Positions 42,163 through 46,237 of a stretch of 64,000 nt of DNA are shown one piece after another (the first letter of the stretch is position 1; every line of letters starts with the position of its first letter). A program made the position numbers and the translations under genes. The notes beneath the pieces were generated by a model. It ran no database searches, was not told the DNA's origin, and saw only the letters and a list, made by a program, of their open reading frames with translations. The stretch is from positions 62,001 to 126,000 of the forward strand of contig CALVUJ010000024.1 in assembly GCA_944363575.1 (NCBI GenBank), written 5' to 3'. This DNA comes from an uncultured Bacilli bacterium. GTDB taxonomy: Bacteria; Bacillota_I; Bacilli_A; RFN20; DUOF01.

Positions 42163-42447
42163 ATGAAATTTCATATAGTTCAAATAGGAGAAGATCTTGA
42201 TAAAATTTGTAAATTATATGGTATAGATAAAAGCACAATAGAGAAATTAAATCCTACGATTAATTCAAGAAGTTTAATAGTAGGTGAGAAGATTAGAGTT
42301 GTGATTAAAGAGGATAAGAAAATAGTAGATGATATTTCATCGATTTATACAAGCGATAGTAGTGAAGAAATACAAGATGAAAAATACATTTGCCCACATT
42401 GTAAAAATATAATTTTAATTCCTAAAAATAAATATAATCATTATTAA
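42163..42447 (+). CDS. LysM protein with single CxxC, unknown
   Basis: A 94-residue protein. Residues 1-47 are a LysM module (HIVQIGEDLDKICKLYG, LNPTINSRSLIVGEKI), followed by an acidic linker and a C-terminal CPHCKN that looks like half a zinc ribbon. No signal peptide or membrane helix is visible, so it is probably cytoplasmic, as are several spore-coat LysM proteins (SafA, SpoVID). Coupling to sporulation is only suggested by that comparison. GGAGGT precedes the start; a long T-run terminator follows. Confidence 0.7.
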   Translation: MKFHIVQIGEDLDKICKLYGIDKSTIEKLNPTINSRSLIVGEKIRVVIKEDKKIVDDISSIYTSDSSEEIQDEKYICPHCKNIILIPKNKYNHY

Positions 42448-42487
42448 ACAAATAGGTTTAGGCTTATTTGTTTTTTTTTTTTTTTTT
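42446..42487 (+). terminator. Rho-independent terminator with 17-T tract
   Basis: AAACAAATA pairs with TATTTGTTT around a 10-base loop and runs into 17 consecutive T. It ends the obg/LysM unit. Confidence 0.85.
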
Positions 42488-42496
42488 AAAAATATT

Positions 42497-42525
42497 TTGA
42501 CATTGCTCTATAAAAAAAATATTAT
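42497..42525 (+). promoter_or_regulatory. Strong sigma-A promoter of the AAA+ gene
   Basis: Perfect TTGACA (42497-42502), 17-bp spacer, TATTAT (42520-42525). AGGAG and ATG 42551 follow. Confidence 0.75.
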
Positions 42526-42550
42526 GTAAATATGCTTAGGAGTGAATATA

Positions 42551-44164
42551 ATGAAAAAAGAGAAGTACTATCAAAGTTATTTTAATTGCTACAATGCCAT
42601 TTTAGATATCACCGGTTTAATTATGAATTTTTTTAATGTTAACATATATACAATCAATGAAGTAAGCTATGAAAATGATGCAAATTACAATTTAAAAATA
42701 ATAAAAGACCACTTAAATAACTATTCTTTTAATTCATTAGTTAGTGAAGAGTTTATTAAAATTCTTAATGTTTTTTATCCTAAAAACCAAAGAGAAATTA
42801 ATAAATTATACGATTCCCTTGAATATGAAGTTAATTATAAGTTAAGAAAAACCCTTTTTTGGCTTAAAAACAGGTATTTACCATTTCTTAAAGCATATTG
42901 GATAGATCATTTAAATACGCATAATAATTATTCAAATAAAGAAAGTAAATGGGAAGAAATATTATCAAATAATGAAAATATAGAACTTTTGCGTGACGAA
43001 ATTAATGAAATTCTAATGATGTGTATGAATATTGAAAGTGATGAAAGAATTGATAATATAATAAAAATCGATAAAAATATAAGTACAAGTGAGTTGGAGA
43101 AATATATTTCAGGTGGTGTTGCACTAGATAATGTAGAGAAAAATGAAAAAGAAATGAATACAAAAGATAAAGTTATAGAAAATGTGAATTTTAAAAAGTT
43201 TGATTATTTTTTTAATAGTATTATTGGGCAAGATGAAGCTATTGATGGTATATATAAAGTTTTAAAAGAAAACATTACCTTTTTTAATGCTGAAAATATT
43301 GATGGCTCTACTAGTGAAGAACAAAAGCCATTAGCAACATTTATGTTTTATGGTCCTACAGGAACAGGGAAAACAGAAACTGCCAAAATTATAACAAAGT
43401 TCTTATTTAATGATAAGAAGAAATTACTAATGTTAGATATGAATTGTTATAAGGATTCCAAAACAGCAGCTAGTTCAATTAAAGGGCATCCAGAAGGATA
43501 TGTTGATAGTGATAATGGTACAGATTTTATTAGATTTTTAAAAGCAAATGATAGAGGAGTTATACTACTAGATGAATTTGAAAAAGCACCTATAGATGTA
43601 AGGGAAATTTTCATGACTATGTTAGATGAAGGTTACTTTAAAGATGCTTTAGGCAACGTCTATGATTTATCCAAATATGTTTTTATTGCTACTACTAATG
43701 CAAGCGATCAATATGAAAGGGAAAACAGAAAAATTGGGTTTGTTAAATATGATGATAATGAAAAGGAAAAAGATACTCAAGATTTTTTACGAGAAGTGTT
43801 TGGTTCACCTATATTATCACGTTTTAACAAAGTCATTCATTTTAAAAGTATTAAATATGATGATGCTAAAAAAATTGCTAACAATATAATTAAAAACATC
43901 TGTCTTGACTTTCAAAGAAAAAAATTTAATGATGTGATTCCTAAAATTAGTATTGATAATTTAGATGAAATACTTGTTAAAATATTAAAAGATAGTAATT
44001 TTGAAAAAGAAGGAGTTCGCTGTTTGAAAAACACAATTAGAGATACTATTAGCAACCAAATAATTAATTTAATTAGTGAAGGAAAAAAAGATATTTTAAT
44101 TACATATCGTGAAGGTAAAGTGCTCGTAGAAAGCCCTAAAAAGAATTTAAGTGCTAGATGCTAG
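42551..44164 (+). CDS. Hsp100-like AAA+ ATPase with novel N-terminal domain
   Basis: The C-terminal ~300 residues are one AAA+ module of the ClpA/ClpB D2 type: start IIGQDEAIDGIYK, Walker A GPTGTGKTE, a HPEGYVDSDNG pore-region-like loop, Walker B GVILLDEFEKAP, sensor 1 FIATTNAS, an arginine finger region in SPILSRFNKVIHF and sensor 2 GVRCLKNTIRDT. The first ~215 residues are helical, contain a short hydrophobic start, and match no Clp N-domain, D1 or ClpX zinc domain that I know. It is neither ClpX nor ClpC. ATG with AGGAG was chosen. The next genes, DUF1622 and CpaE-like, lie downstream. Confidence 0.8.
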   Translation: MKKEKYYQSYFNCYNAILDITGLIMNFFNVNIYTINEVSYENDANYNLKIIKDHLNNYSFNSLVSEEFIKILNVFYPKNQREINKLYDSLEYEVNYKLRKTLFWLKNRYLPFLKAYWIDHLNTHNNYSNKESKWEEILSNNENIELLRDEINEILMMCMNIESDERIDNIIKIDKNISTSELEKYISGGVALDNVEKNEKEMNTKDKVIENVNFKKFDYFFNSIIGQDEAIDGIYKVLKENITFFNAENIDGSTSEEQKPLATFMFYGPTGTGKTETAKIITKFLFNDKKKLLMLDMNCYKDSKTAASSIKGHPEGYVDSDNGTDFIRFLKANDRGVILLDEFEKAPIDVREIFMTMLDEGYFKDALGNVYDLSKYVFIATTNASDQYERENRKIGFVKYDDNEKEKDTQDFLREVFGSPILSRFNKVIHFKSIKYDDAKKIANNIIKNICLDFQRKKFNDVIPKISIDNLDEILVKILKDSNFEKEGVRCLKNTIRDTISNQIINLISEGKKDILITYREGKVLVESPKKNLSARC

Positions 44165-44189
44165 ATATTAATCTTAGTAAATATATAAA

Positions 44190-44218
44190 TTGATTTTTAA
44201 GAATAATTTTGGTAAATT
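44190..44218 (+). promoter_or_regulatory. Possible promoter of DUF1622-cpaE pair
   Basis: TTGATT (44190-44195), 17-bp spacer, TAAATT (44213-44218); AAGGAGAGGG follows before the start codon. Confidence 0.45.
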
Positions 44219-44242
44219 ATATAAGGAGAGGGTGAAAAATTG

Positions 44243-44632
44243 ATGGAAGAGTTTATTAACAATATTTTATATTATCTAATATGGATAATAGAAATCATAG
44301 GAATTGCTATCATTGTTTTTGGAACCTTTTATTCTTTGATTAAGTTTGCTGTGGAGTTTTATAGACATAAAAAAGATCCTAAATCTTCTAATTCATCCAT
44401 CAAACTAGTACTTGCAAATTATTTAGCTTTAGGCTTAGAATTTATGTTAGCAGCTGAAATATTGAGAACAGTTACTACTAATAGGACACTAGAAGAAATT
44501 ATGGTTTTAGGAGCCATTATAATATTACGTGCTGCTATGAGTTTGCTAATCTATTGGGAACTTTCATATGAAGAAAAAAAGGAACTTTTGATTGAAAAAA
44601 AGAAAAATAAATCTACAATTAAGCCGTTATAG
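44243..44632 (+). CDS. DUF1622 family membrane protein
   Basis: Three membrane helices in 129 residues: an N-terminal one with YYLIWIIEIIGIAIIVFG, then LVLANYLALGLEFMLAAEILRT, then EEIMVLGAIIILRAAMSLLI. These are the DUF1622 signatures. The function is unknown. ATG 44243 is preferred over an adjacent TTG. The gene lies 14 bp before the CpaE-like gene, with GGAGGG between, so one transcript is likely. Confidence 0.83.
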   Translation: MEEFINNILYYLIWIIEIIGIAIIVFGTFYSLIKFAVEFYRHKKDPKSSNSSIKLVLANYLALGLEFMLAAEILRTVTTNRTLEEIMVLGAIIILRAAMSLLIYWELSYEEKKELLIEKKKNKSTIKPL

Positions 44633-44646
44633 GAGGGATTAAGAAG

Positions 44647-45807
44647 ATGTATAAGGTATATGTTGATAGGGGCTTTGTTAACAAAGTATGGAGAAGAATT
44701 GAAGAAGATAAAGATATTGATTTCATTATCTATAATGGTTTTTCAGATTTGATTTTAAAAATAAATATTGAAGATAAAAATATTATTTATTTGTATGACT
44801 ATAATACGAATAATGATTGTTATGAAAAAGCAAGGGTATTAAAAGGAAAATTTTCTACTTGCGTTATCAATATAGTTGAAAATGGTGTAACTATTAATAC
44901 TAAACATTTAAATCGAATTGGTGTTAATGCTTTAATAAGGTCAAATGACTACAATATAATAATGGATAATTTACAAAAATCCAAACACTTAAGTGATACT
45001 TATTTTAGTGATCAATATGTCCATATTGATGAAAATGAATTAAAGTATAAAGATATCAATGTAGTTACTGTTATGGGAGCTAGTGGAGGTGTAGGAAAGA
45101 CTACTATCGCTACTAATTTAGCAGCAAGTTTTGCCGAGTTTGGTTTGAAAACATGTATTGTAGACCTAAGTTTACAGTTTGGTGATGTGGGGTTATTTAC
45201 GAACATTAAGCCTACTTTTACAATTTATGATTTACTAATTAATAATGCTAATTTTAATCCTAATATGAACTTGTTTATTGAACATGTAAATCCTAATTTA
45301 TTTGTTTTACCTGCTCCTGTATTGCCAGAGCAAGCAGATTACATTACAAGATCAATGATTGTTACTTTAATTAAAGGATTATCATTATACTTTGATGTAG
45401 TAGTTTTTGATACTCCTTCTATAATCAATGATTTATGTTTAGAATTATTTCAAATGTCTCAACAAATAGTATTAATAACCACTAAAGATTTAGGATCTTT
45501 AAAAAATACTAAGTTGGCCATTGATATTTTAACTAAGTTGAAAGTAAATGATAAAATAAAATTAGTTTTAAATAAATATGATAGCCCTAAATTTGTTGTA
45601 GAAGATGAAATCGTTGGAAGAATGCTTGGAGTTAAAGTTATTTCCTCTATACCACACACAAATACCATTACTGGTAATGCAATTAATATGGGTGTACCAT
45701 TTATATATTCATACCCTCGTGAACCAATTAGCGATGCCGTTAGAGAATTAATGAGCAAAGTTCGTTATAATTGCATGGTAGGAGATACTAAAATTGAAAA
45801 AAAATAA
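44647..45807 (+). CDS. CpaE-like MinD/ParA-family ATPase, orphan
   Basis: Residues 1-135 form a receiver-like N-terminal domain without an obvious phospho-acceptor, and 140-386 a MinD/ParA ATPase with the deviant Walker motif GASGGVGKTT, then LSLQFGDVGLF and VVFDTPS. This is the layout of CpaE/TadZ pilus-positioning proteins. No tad/cpa pilus gene (CpaF, TadB/C, pilin, secretin) lies near, which makes this an orphan. It may localise some other membrane machine, perhaps with the DUF1622 protein. Start follows GGAGGG. Confidence 0.82.
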   Translation: MYKVYVDRGFVNKVWRRIEEDKDIDFIIYNGFSDLILKINIEDKNIIYLYDYNTNNDCYEKARVLKGKFSTCVINIVENGVTINTKHLNRIGVNALIRSNDYNIIMDNLQKSKHLSDTYFSDQYVHIDENELKYKDINVVTVMGASGGVGKTTIATNLAASFAEFGLKTCIVDLSLQFGDVGLFTNIKPTFTIYDLLINNANFNPNMNLFIEHVNPNLFVLPAPVLPEQADYITRSMIVTLIKGLSLYFDVVVFDTPSIINDLCLELFQMSQQIVLITTKDLGSLKNTKLAIDILTKLKVNDKIKLVLNKYDSPKFVVEDEIVGRMLGVKVISSIPHTNTITGNAINMGVPFIYSYPREPISDAVRELMSKVRYNCMVGDTKIEKK

Positions 45808-45889
45808 TTTAAGCTTAATAAGTTTTATCGCCATCATAGGTTGTTTAATTGTTAGTTTAATTTATATCATAATTATTATAAAATCATAA
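45794..45889 (+). CDS. Possible 31-residue membrane peptide
   Basis: A TTG start lies 8 bases after TAGGAGA, inside the end of the CpaE-like gene in another frame. The peptide starts MKKNNLSLISFIAI and continues as one hydrophobic helix, ending in Lys-Ser. The stop is overlapped by a terminator. The good ribosome site and single-helix design suggest a real miniprotein, but such short frames are easily accidental. Confidence 0.4.
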   Translation: MKKNNLSLISFIAIIGCLIVSLIYIIIIIKS

Positions 45890-45917
45890 AATAATAGTGC
45901 TTACTATTATTTTTTTT
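45888..45917 (+). terminator. Rho-independent terminator of the AAA+/CpaE cluster
   Basis: AAAATAATAG pairs with CTATTATTTT around a 6-base loop, then more T. Confidence 0.8.
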
Positions 45918-45958: not shown

Positions 45959-46237
45959 ATGTTAGAAAACAAAATAGATCTTGTTAAAGTTAATGAAGAA
46001 GAATTTAAAAATGTATTAAATGAGTTAACTAAAGAAGAAGTAAGCGAATTATTATTAGGATTAAAAAAGGAAATAAGTAAAGATTATGAATCATTTACTT
46101 TTGAATTTCAAAATATTCCTTTTGAAAGAATTAGAAGAATAACTGGTTATCTAGTAGGGACCTTAGATCGTTTCAATGATGCTAAAAAAGCAGAAGTTGA
46201 AAAAAGAGTTAAACACGGCTTTGAAGATGTAAATTAA
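45959..46237 (+). CDS. Stand-alone protein resembling the NrdD C-terminus
   Basis: A 92-residue protein whose second half, RRITGYLVGTLDRFNDAKKA followed by EVEKRVKHG, resembles the extreme C-terminal part of anaerobic ribonucleotide reductases (RxTGYL...W/FNxxKxxE...RxxH), where the glycyl radical lies. Here it stands alone, without the CxxC zinc site, and the first half is a helical, acidic region. It cannot be a reductase; it could be a YfiD-like spare part or only a shared fold. Ribosome site GGGGAG; a terminator follows directly. Confidence 0.6.
   Translation: MLENKIDLVKVNEEEFKNVLNELTKEEVSELLLGLKKEISKDYESFTFEFQNIPFERIRRITGYLVGTLDRFNDAKKAEVEKRVKHGFEDVN

Follow-up and report, generated by a model that had tools for sequence, protein, structure and literature searches.

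Conserved operon for a DUF1622 protein, a CpaE/TadZ-like ATPase and a mini membrane protein, adjoined by a putative lineage-specific ClpP-type AAA+ gene, in uncultured Bacilli

What is understood of positioning ATPases of the MinD/ParA type usually comes from their cargo. For TadZ of Eubacterium rectale, ATPase activity has been reported even though the protein carries neither of the two Walker A lysines (PMC10482377). Unfoldases that deliver substrates to ClpP bind its H-pockets through a loop of the form (L/I/V)-G-(F/L) (PMC8745299; PMC13125188). The literature on DUF1622 yielded a passing mention, and no paper on its function was found. Genes for relatives of all of these proteins adjoin one another in a 64-kb window, the whole stretch of DNA analyzed here (G000:C24:62001-126000), from the genome of an uncultured Bacilli bacterium (1.13 Mb, 26 contigs, 90.9% complete). 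The initial annotation had joined them into one cluster. We lean towards a different explanation, in which 2 independent units lie side by side: a conserved operon of 3 genes and a lineage-specific gene for a ClpP-type AAA+ protein.

The genes that had been named (AAA+, DUF1622, and CpaE-like) were all located in the sequence as claimed. Upstream of them is a gene for a small LysM protein of 94 amino acids (42163-42447, +; Pfam LysM, 28.7 bits), which follows obgE in the window genome as well as in G001 and G002, 2 genomes that represent other genera of the family. Further upstream, a ribosomal protein L21 leader (RF00559; 39786-39860, +) was observed 5' of rplU-ysxB-rpmA-obgE. The LysM and AAA+ genes are set apart by a terminator-like hairpin, AAACAAATA/TATTTGTTT, with a tract of 17 Ts behind it (42446-42487, +); the T run itself (42471-42487), situated between this hairpin and the promoter-like site of the AAA+ gene, could vary in length. 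The AAA+ protein has 537 amino acids (42551-44164, +), and its gene starts with an ATG at 42551 that has GGAG upstream. The strong promoter proposed for this gene corresponds to TTGACA-17-TATTAT (42497-42525, +), a consensus match only. It is the top match in the region (11/12), but the total of 35 pattern matches is about the number expected from shuffled sequences (33.6).

On the same strand, after a gap of 78 bases in which no clear terminator was seen, follow the genes for the DUF1622 membrane protein (129 amino acids; 44243-44632, +; alternative TTG start at 44240), the CpaE/TadZ-like ATPase (386 amino acids; 44647-45807, +), and a mini membrane protein of 31 amino acids with a single span (45794-45889, +). 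A second terminator-like hairpin with a T tail, AAATAATAG/CTATTATTT (45889-45917, +), marks the end of the operon. The closing terminator of the initial annotation is visible by eye in this form, but both AU-rich hairpins have one G-C pair each and fall below the G-C rule of the scanner. Downstream, we observed a gene for a 92-amino-acid protein (45959-46237, +). Over its last ~38 residues (ERIRRITGYLVGTLDRFNDAKKAEVEKRVKHG...), this protein nearly matches the C-terminal end of the NrdD that the genome encodes (G000:C24:36877-38817). It has no enzyme barrel and resembles a spare glycyl-radical part of the anaerobic ribonucleotide reductase, comparable to YfiD for pyruvate formate-lyase.

Judged by its sequence, the AAA+ protein belongs to the Clp-type unfoldases with a single ring. 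It matched Pfam AAA_2 with 99.6 bits, and its top whole-protein match was the D2 half of Clp/Hsp100 proteins. The AAA+ domain (residues 220-515) forms a single ring and carries intact Walker A (GPTGTGKT), pore (GYV), and Walker B (VILLDE) motifs, while alignment additionally placed the sensor TTN, an arginine finger, and the sensor-2 motif GVR. The best PDB matches were to ClpC D2, in which VGF is aligned with an IGF tripeptide of the AAA+ protein. Within the order, a tripeptide of this docking type was seen in the alignment of ClpC-like proteins, one of which (L036) reads MGY at this position. A tree placed the AAA+ protein on the ClpC-like side (support 96/85), to which little weight can be given as its branch is very long. 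Since the genome encodes ClpP, in one copy, and IGF stands at the position of the docking loop, the AAA+ protein probably feeds the ordinary ClpP protease of the cell, with IGF as the candidate docking tripeptide. The earlier remark that no protease partner is near is therefore true locally, but not for the genome, which has ClpP for a protein with such a tripeptide. The same 2 features argue against the membrane-placed remodelling machine that had been considered, and a lineage-specific ClpP partner is the more likely role. A disaggregase of ClpB type that works independently of ClpP would also agree with the match of the AAA domain to ClpB D2; we consider this unlikely, as the GF tripeptide is missing from the ClpB-like proteins of the order in the alignment and the AAA+ protein has a single ring and no middle domain.

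The N-terminus of ~215 residues had been described as lacking a known family, and this description holds. No Pfam, PADLOC, or PDB family matched residues 1-215, and neither a Clp_N nor a zinc finger domain was found there. Matches to PHROGs were sub-significant (E 0.09). Searches of 278 further genomes from the order and 394 further genomes from a class sample gave no real relative; the matches obtained were scattered and short (E 8.7e-5 or weaker), the best of them falling inside a DNA polymerase III-like protein, and were rejected. The region is probably helical. Its structure prediction was set aside for its low confidence (mean pLDDT 41). Candidate relatives of the AAA+ protein in phages and plasmids were likewise rejected, as these were generic Clp matches with a coverage of at most 64% among the matches listed; no match had a coverage of at least 80%, and none came from viral contigs.

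The remaining genes recur together in other genomes. In both G001 and G002, the gene order is obgE, LysM, DUF1622, and CpaE-like, with identities to the window copies of 68% and 58% for the CpaE-like protein and 47% and 30% for the DUF1622 protein. Among the carriers of the CpaE-like gene, the nearest named relative is a metagenome-assembled genome (MAG) from sheep rectum, Bacilli bacterium RGIG6178, followed by a MAG labelled bacterium AS08sgBPME_148. The DUF1622 protein scored 72 bits against PF07784, with a cut-off of 24, and has about 3 membrane spans by hydropathy. In G003, a fourth genus (86% complete), the DUF1622 gene is located elsewhere, adjoining an ABC-F protein, and neither a CpaE-like gene nor obgE was found in this genome. 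There (L126:2460-4291), DUF1622 is followed by 2 membrane-anchored proteins of 235 and 227 amino acids without a family, so that its set of partners differs from that in the window. A different family of the order has DUF1622 on its own, beside unrelated genes.

The third gene of the operon overlaps the last 14 bases of the CpaE-like gene and starts with a TTG, with a Shine-Dalgarno-like AGGAG at 45780-45784. In all 3 genera, an open frame of 29-31 codons that begins with TTG was found in the same register, preceded by a purine-rich sequence; in G001, there is an additional ATG upstream of the TTG. The encoded proteins, MKKNNLSLISFIAIIGCLIVSLIYIIIIIKS in the window and MKRNNFPIISLVIVIIALLFGLLYYMIIL and MNKNNYSLIALVSVISFTLISAIFLILYLIS in the relatives, each contain one hydrophobic span. 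Under a first-order Markov null, the chance of such a frame was 0.0016, 0.0158, and 0.003 in the 3 genomes, where the overlap with the CpaE-like gene partly dictates the first few residues, so that the independent evidence comes only from the part after NN. The mini membrane peptide, listed as possible in the initial annotation, is real by this conservation of register, length, and hydropathy across genera. By these comparisons, the conserved unit is a DUF1622 protein, a CpaE/TadZ-like ATPase, and a mini membrane protein, in a small sample of 3 genera. The operon has 3 carrier genomes and the AAA+ gene has one, all apparently MAGs or drafts.

Profile searches on the CpaE-like protein detected a MinD/ParA ATPase domain that begins near residue 137, with 80 bits for the MinD profile and a match to 3ea0 that spans the ATPase domain. 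Residues 1-111 may form a pseudo-receiver-like N-domain; they have no Pfam match, and lie in a region whose model shows the alternating strand/helix order of a receiver-like fold (pLDDT about 60). The structure model as a whole had low confidence (mean pLDDT 42); with this model, Foldseek retrieved MinD, FleN, and ParA structures, as well as 3fkq over both domains. The latter is annotated as an NtrC-like two-domain protein of Eubacterium rectale, which we take to be the TadZ structure of this species. In the deviant Walker A motif, GASGGVGKTT, the terminal lysine is retained and the signature lysine is replaced by serine. The signature lysine is missing in all 3 genera (GASGGVGKTT or GASGGIGKTT), whereas Tad-linked CpaE copies of the class, which have CpaF next to them, retain it (GTKGGIGKTT or SSKGGVGRTT). 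Its loss need not abolish ATPase activity, since activity in the absence of both lysines has been reported for TadZ of E. rectale.

The genome's own MinD has the signature lysine and a basic/hydrophobic C-terminus. As a canonical MinC-MinD pair is encoded within the same window, the CpaE-like protein is not the MinD of this genome. No C-terminal membrane-targeting helix was apparent in it by eye, its sequence ending in VGDTKIEKK compared with YRKKSFLEKLFQ in MinD. No type II/IV secretion ATPase (T2SSE/CpaF/TadA) scored over the cut-off in the 90.9% complete genome, in a search that gave a match in 13 of 14 control genomes. On this ground, the CpaE-like ATPase is an orphan, in agreement with its earlier description; given the completeness of the genome, a pilus locus could also be missing from the assembly. 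No CpaE-like proteins were found in viral contigs. The best reading of these features is that the ATPase descended from TadZ/CpaE and was reused away from pili.

The occurrence of Tad-linked CpaE followed by CpaF elsewhere in the class, the missing CpaF, and the lost signature lysine could also be explained by decay, in which case the CpaE-like gene and its neighbors would be functionless remnants of a lost Tad locus. We regard this as quite unlikely. The frames are open in 3 genera at 58-68% identity, the GGxGKTT and FDTP motifs of the CpaE-like protein are invariant across them, and the overlapping mini gene is conserved together with its start site, all of which indicates selection on the operon. 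Moreover, the Tad loci of the class that were looked at showed no DUF1622.

The AAA+ gene does not share this pattern. It is missing from the corresponding locus in both G001 and G002, so the conserved unit excludes it, and its membership in this unit was ruled out by synteny. Together with the terminator and the promoter-like site of its own that precede it, this speaks against its earlier grouping with the DUF1622/CpaE-like pair. In the relatives with a CpaE-like gene, the pair stays together and the AAA+ gene is absent, so that the scattering named in the initial annotation as a refutation applies to the AAA+ gene and not to the pair. Of the initial interpretation as a whole, the orphan ATPase, the pairing with DUF1622, and the mini gene thus stand, and the membership of the AAA+ gene does not. 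The simplest account of these loci is that the AAA+ gene is lineage specific and was inserted between the LysM gene and the conserved operon. Read-through could couple it to the operon in this one species.

That all 4 proteins form one membrane machine, in which DUF1622 and CpaE place the AAA+ protein at the membrane and membrane proteins are remodelled, therefore seems very unlikely to us. The AAA+ gene does adjoin DUF1622 on the same strand without a clear terminator in the gap, and its codon usage fits the genome (z -1.6, no outlier). Against this stand its absence from the other 2 operon-carrying genera, its own promoter-like site, the lack of a membrane span of its own by hydropathy, and the simpler role given by IGF and ClpP. 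Highly improbable, finally, is an anti-phage defence ATPase of the DolB or PDC-M37B type, as the PADLOC matches of the AAA+ protein (PDC-M37B 115.6 bits, DolB 95.3 bits) are exceeded by those of the genome's ordinary ClpC and ClpB (116.6 and 131.6; 108.1 and 118.9), which makes them generic to the AAA domain and led us to reject this role, and no known defence partner was found adjoining the gene.

If 2 independent units are indeed present, the CpaE-like ATPase would bind ATP and dimerize, with an ATP switch that may be altered through the loss of the signature lysine. The DUF1622 protein and the mini protein would stand in for its missing membrane anchor, and the complex would mark or position a non-pilus component of the envelope. 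The AAA+ protein, in turn, may assemble into a hexamer that works as an unfoldase docked on ClpP, with its own N-domain recruiting the substrates. A bolder version, which we consider possible but doubtful, is that the DUF1622 protein, the lysine-less CpaE-like protein, and the mini protein constitute an undescribed, minimal, pilus-free positioning module in which small proteins replace the anchor, joined in this genome by a dedicated ClpP-coupled unfoldase. If true, the operon was kept after the loss of a pilus or in its absence, with DUF1622 and the mini protein as the only fixed partners of the ATPase. Such a pilus-free operon would test how an ATPase reaches the membrane without a targeting helix of its own, and would give the first functional lead for DUF1622. 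The AAA+ protein would add to the cases in which a ClpP partner receives its substrates through a lineage-specific domain.

Compared with TadZ/CpaE of Tad (type IVc) pilus loci, the ATPase shares the MinD/ParA ATPase domain, which is preceded by an N-domain that may be pseudo-receiver-like. It differs from them in the serine at the position of the signature lysine, in the lack of CpaF/TadA in the genome, and in its neighbors, which are DUF1622 and a mini membrane gene rather than CpaB and CpaF. With MinD it has the ATPase fold in common, to which it adds the N-domain, without an apparent C-terminal targeting helix. The DUF1622 protein is a member of PF07784 by its score over the cut-off, and its place beside a CpaE-like gene differs from the lone setting of DUF1622 elsewhere in the order. 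The AAA+ protein resembles ClpC, ClpE, and ClpX in its D2-type AAA domain, its intact motifs, and the IGF at the docking position, and is set apart from them by its single ring, the absence of a Clp_N or zinc domain, and an N-domain without a family match.
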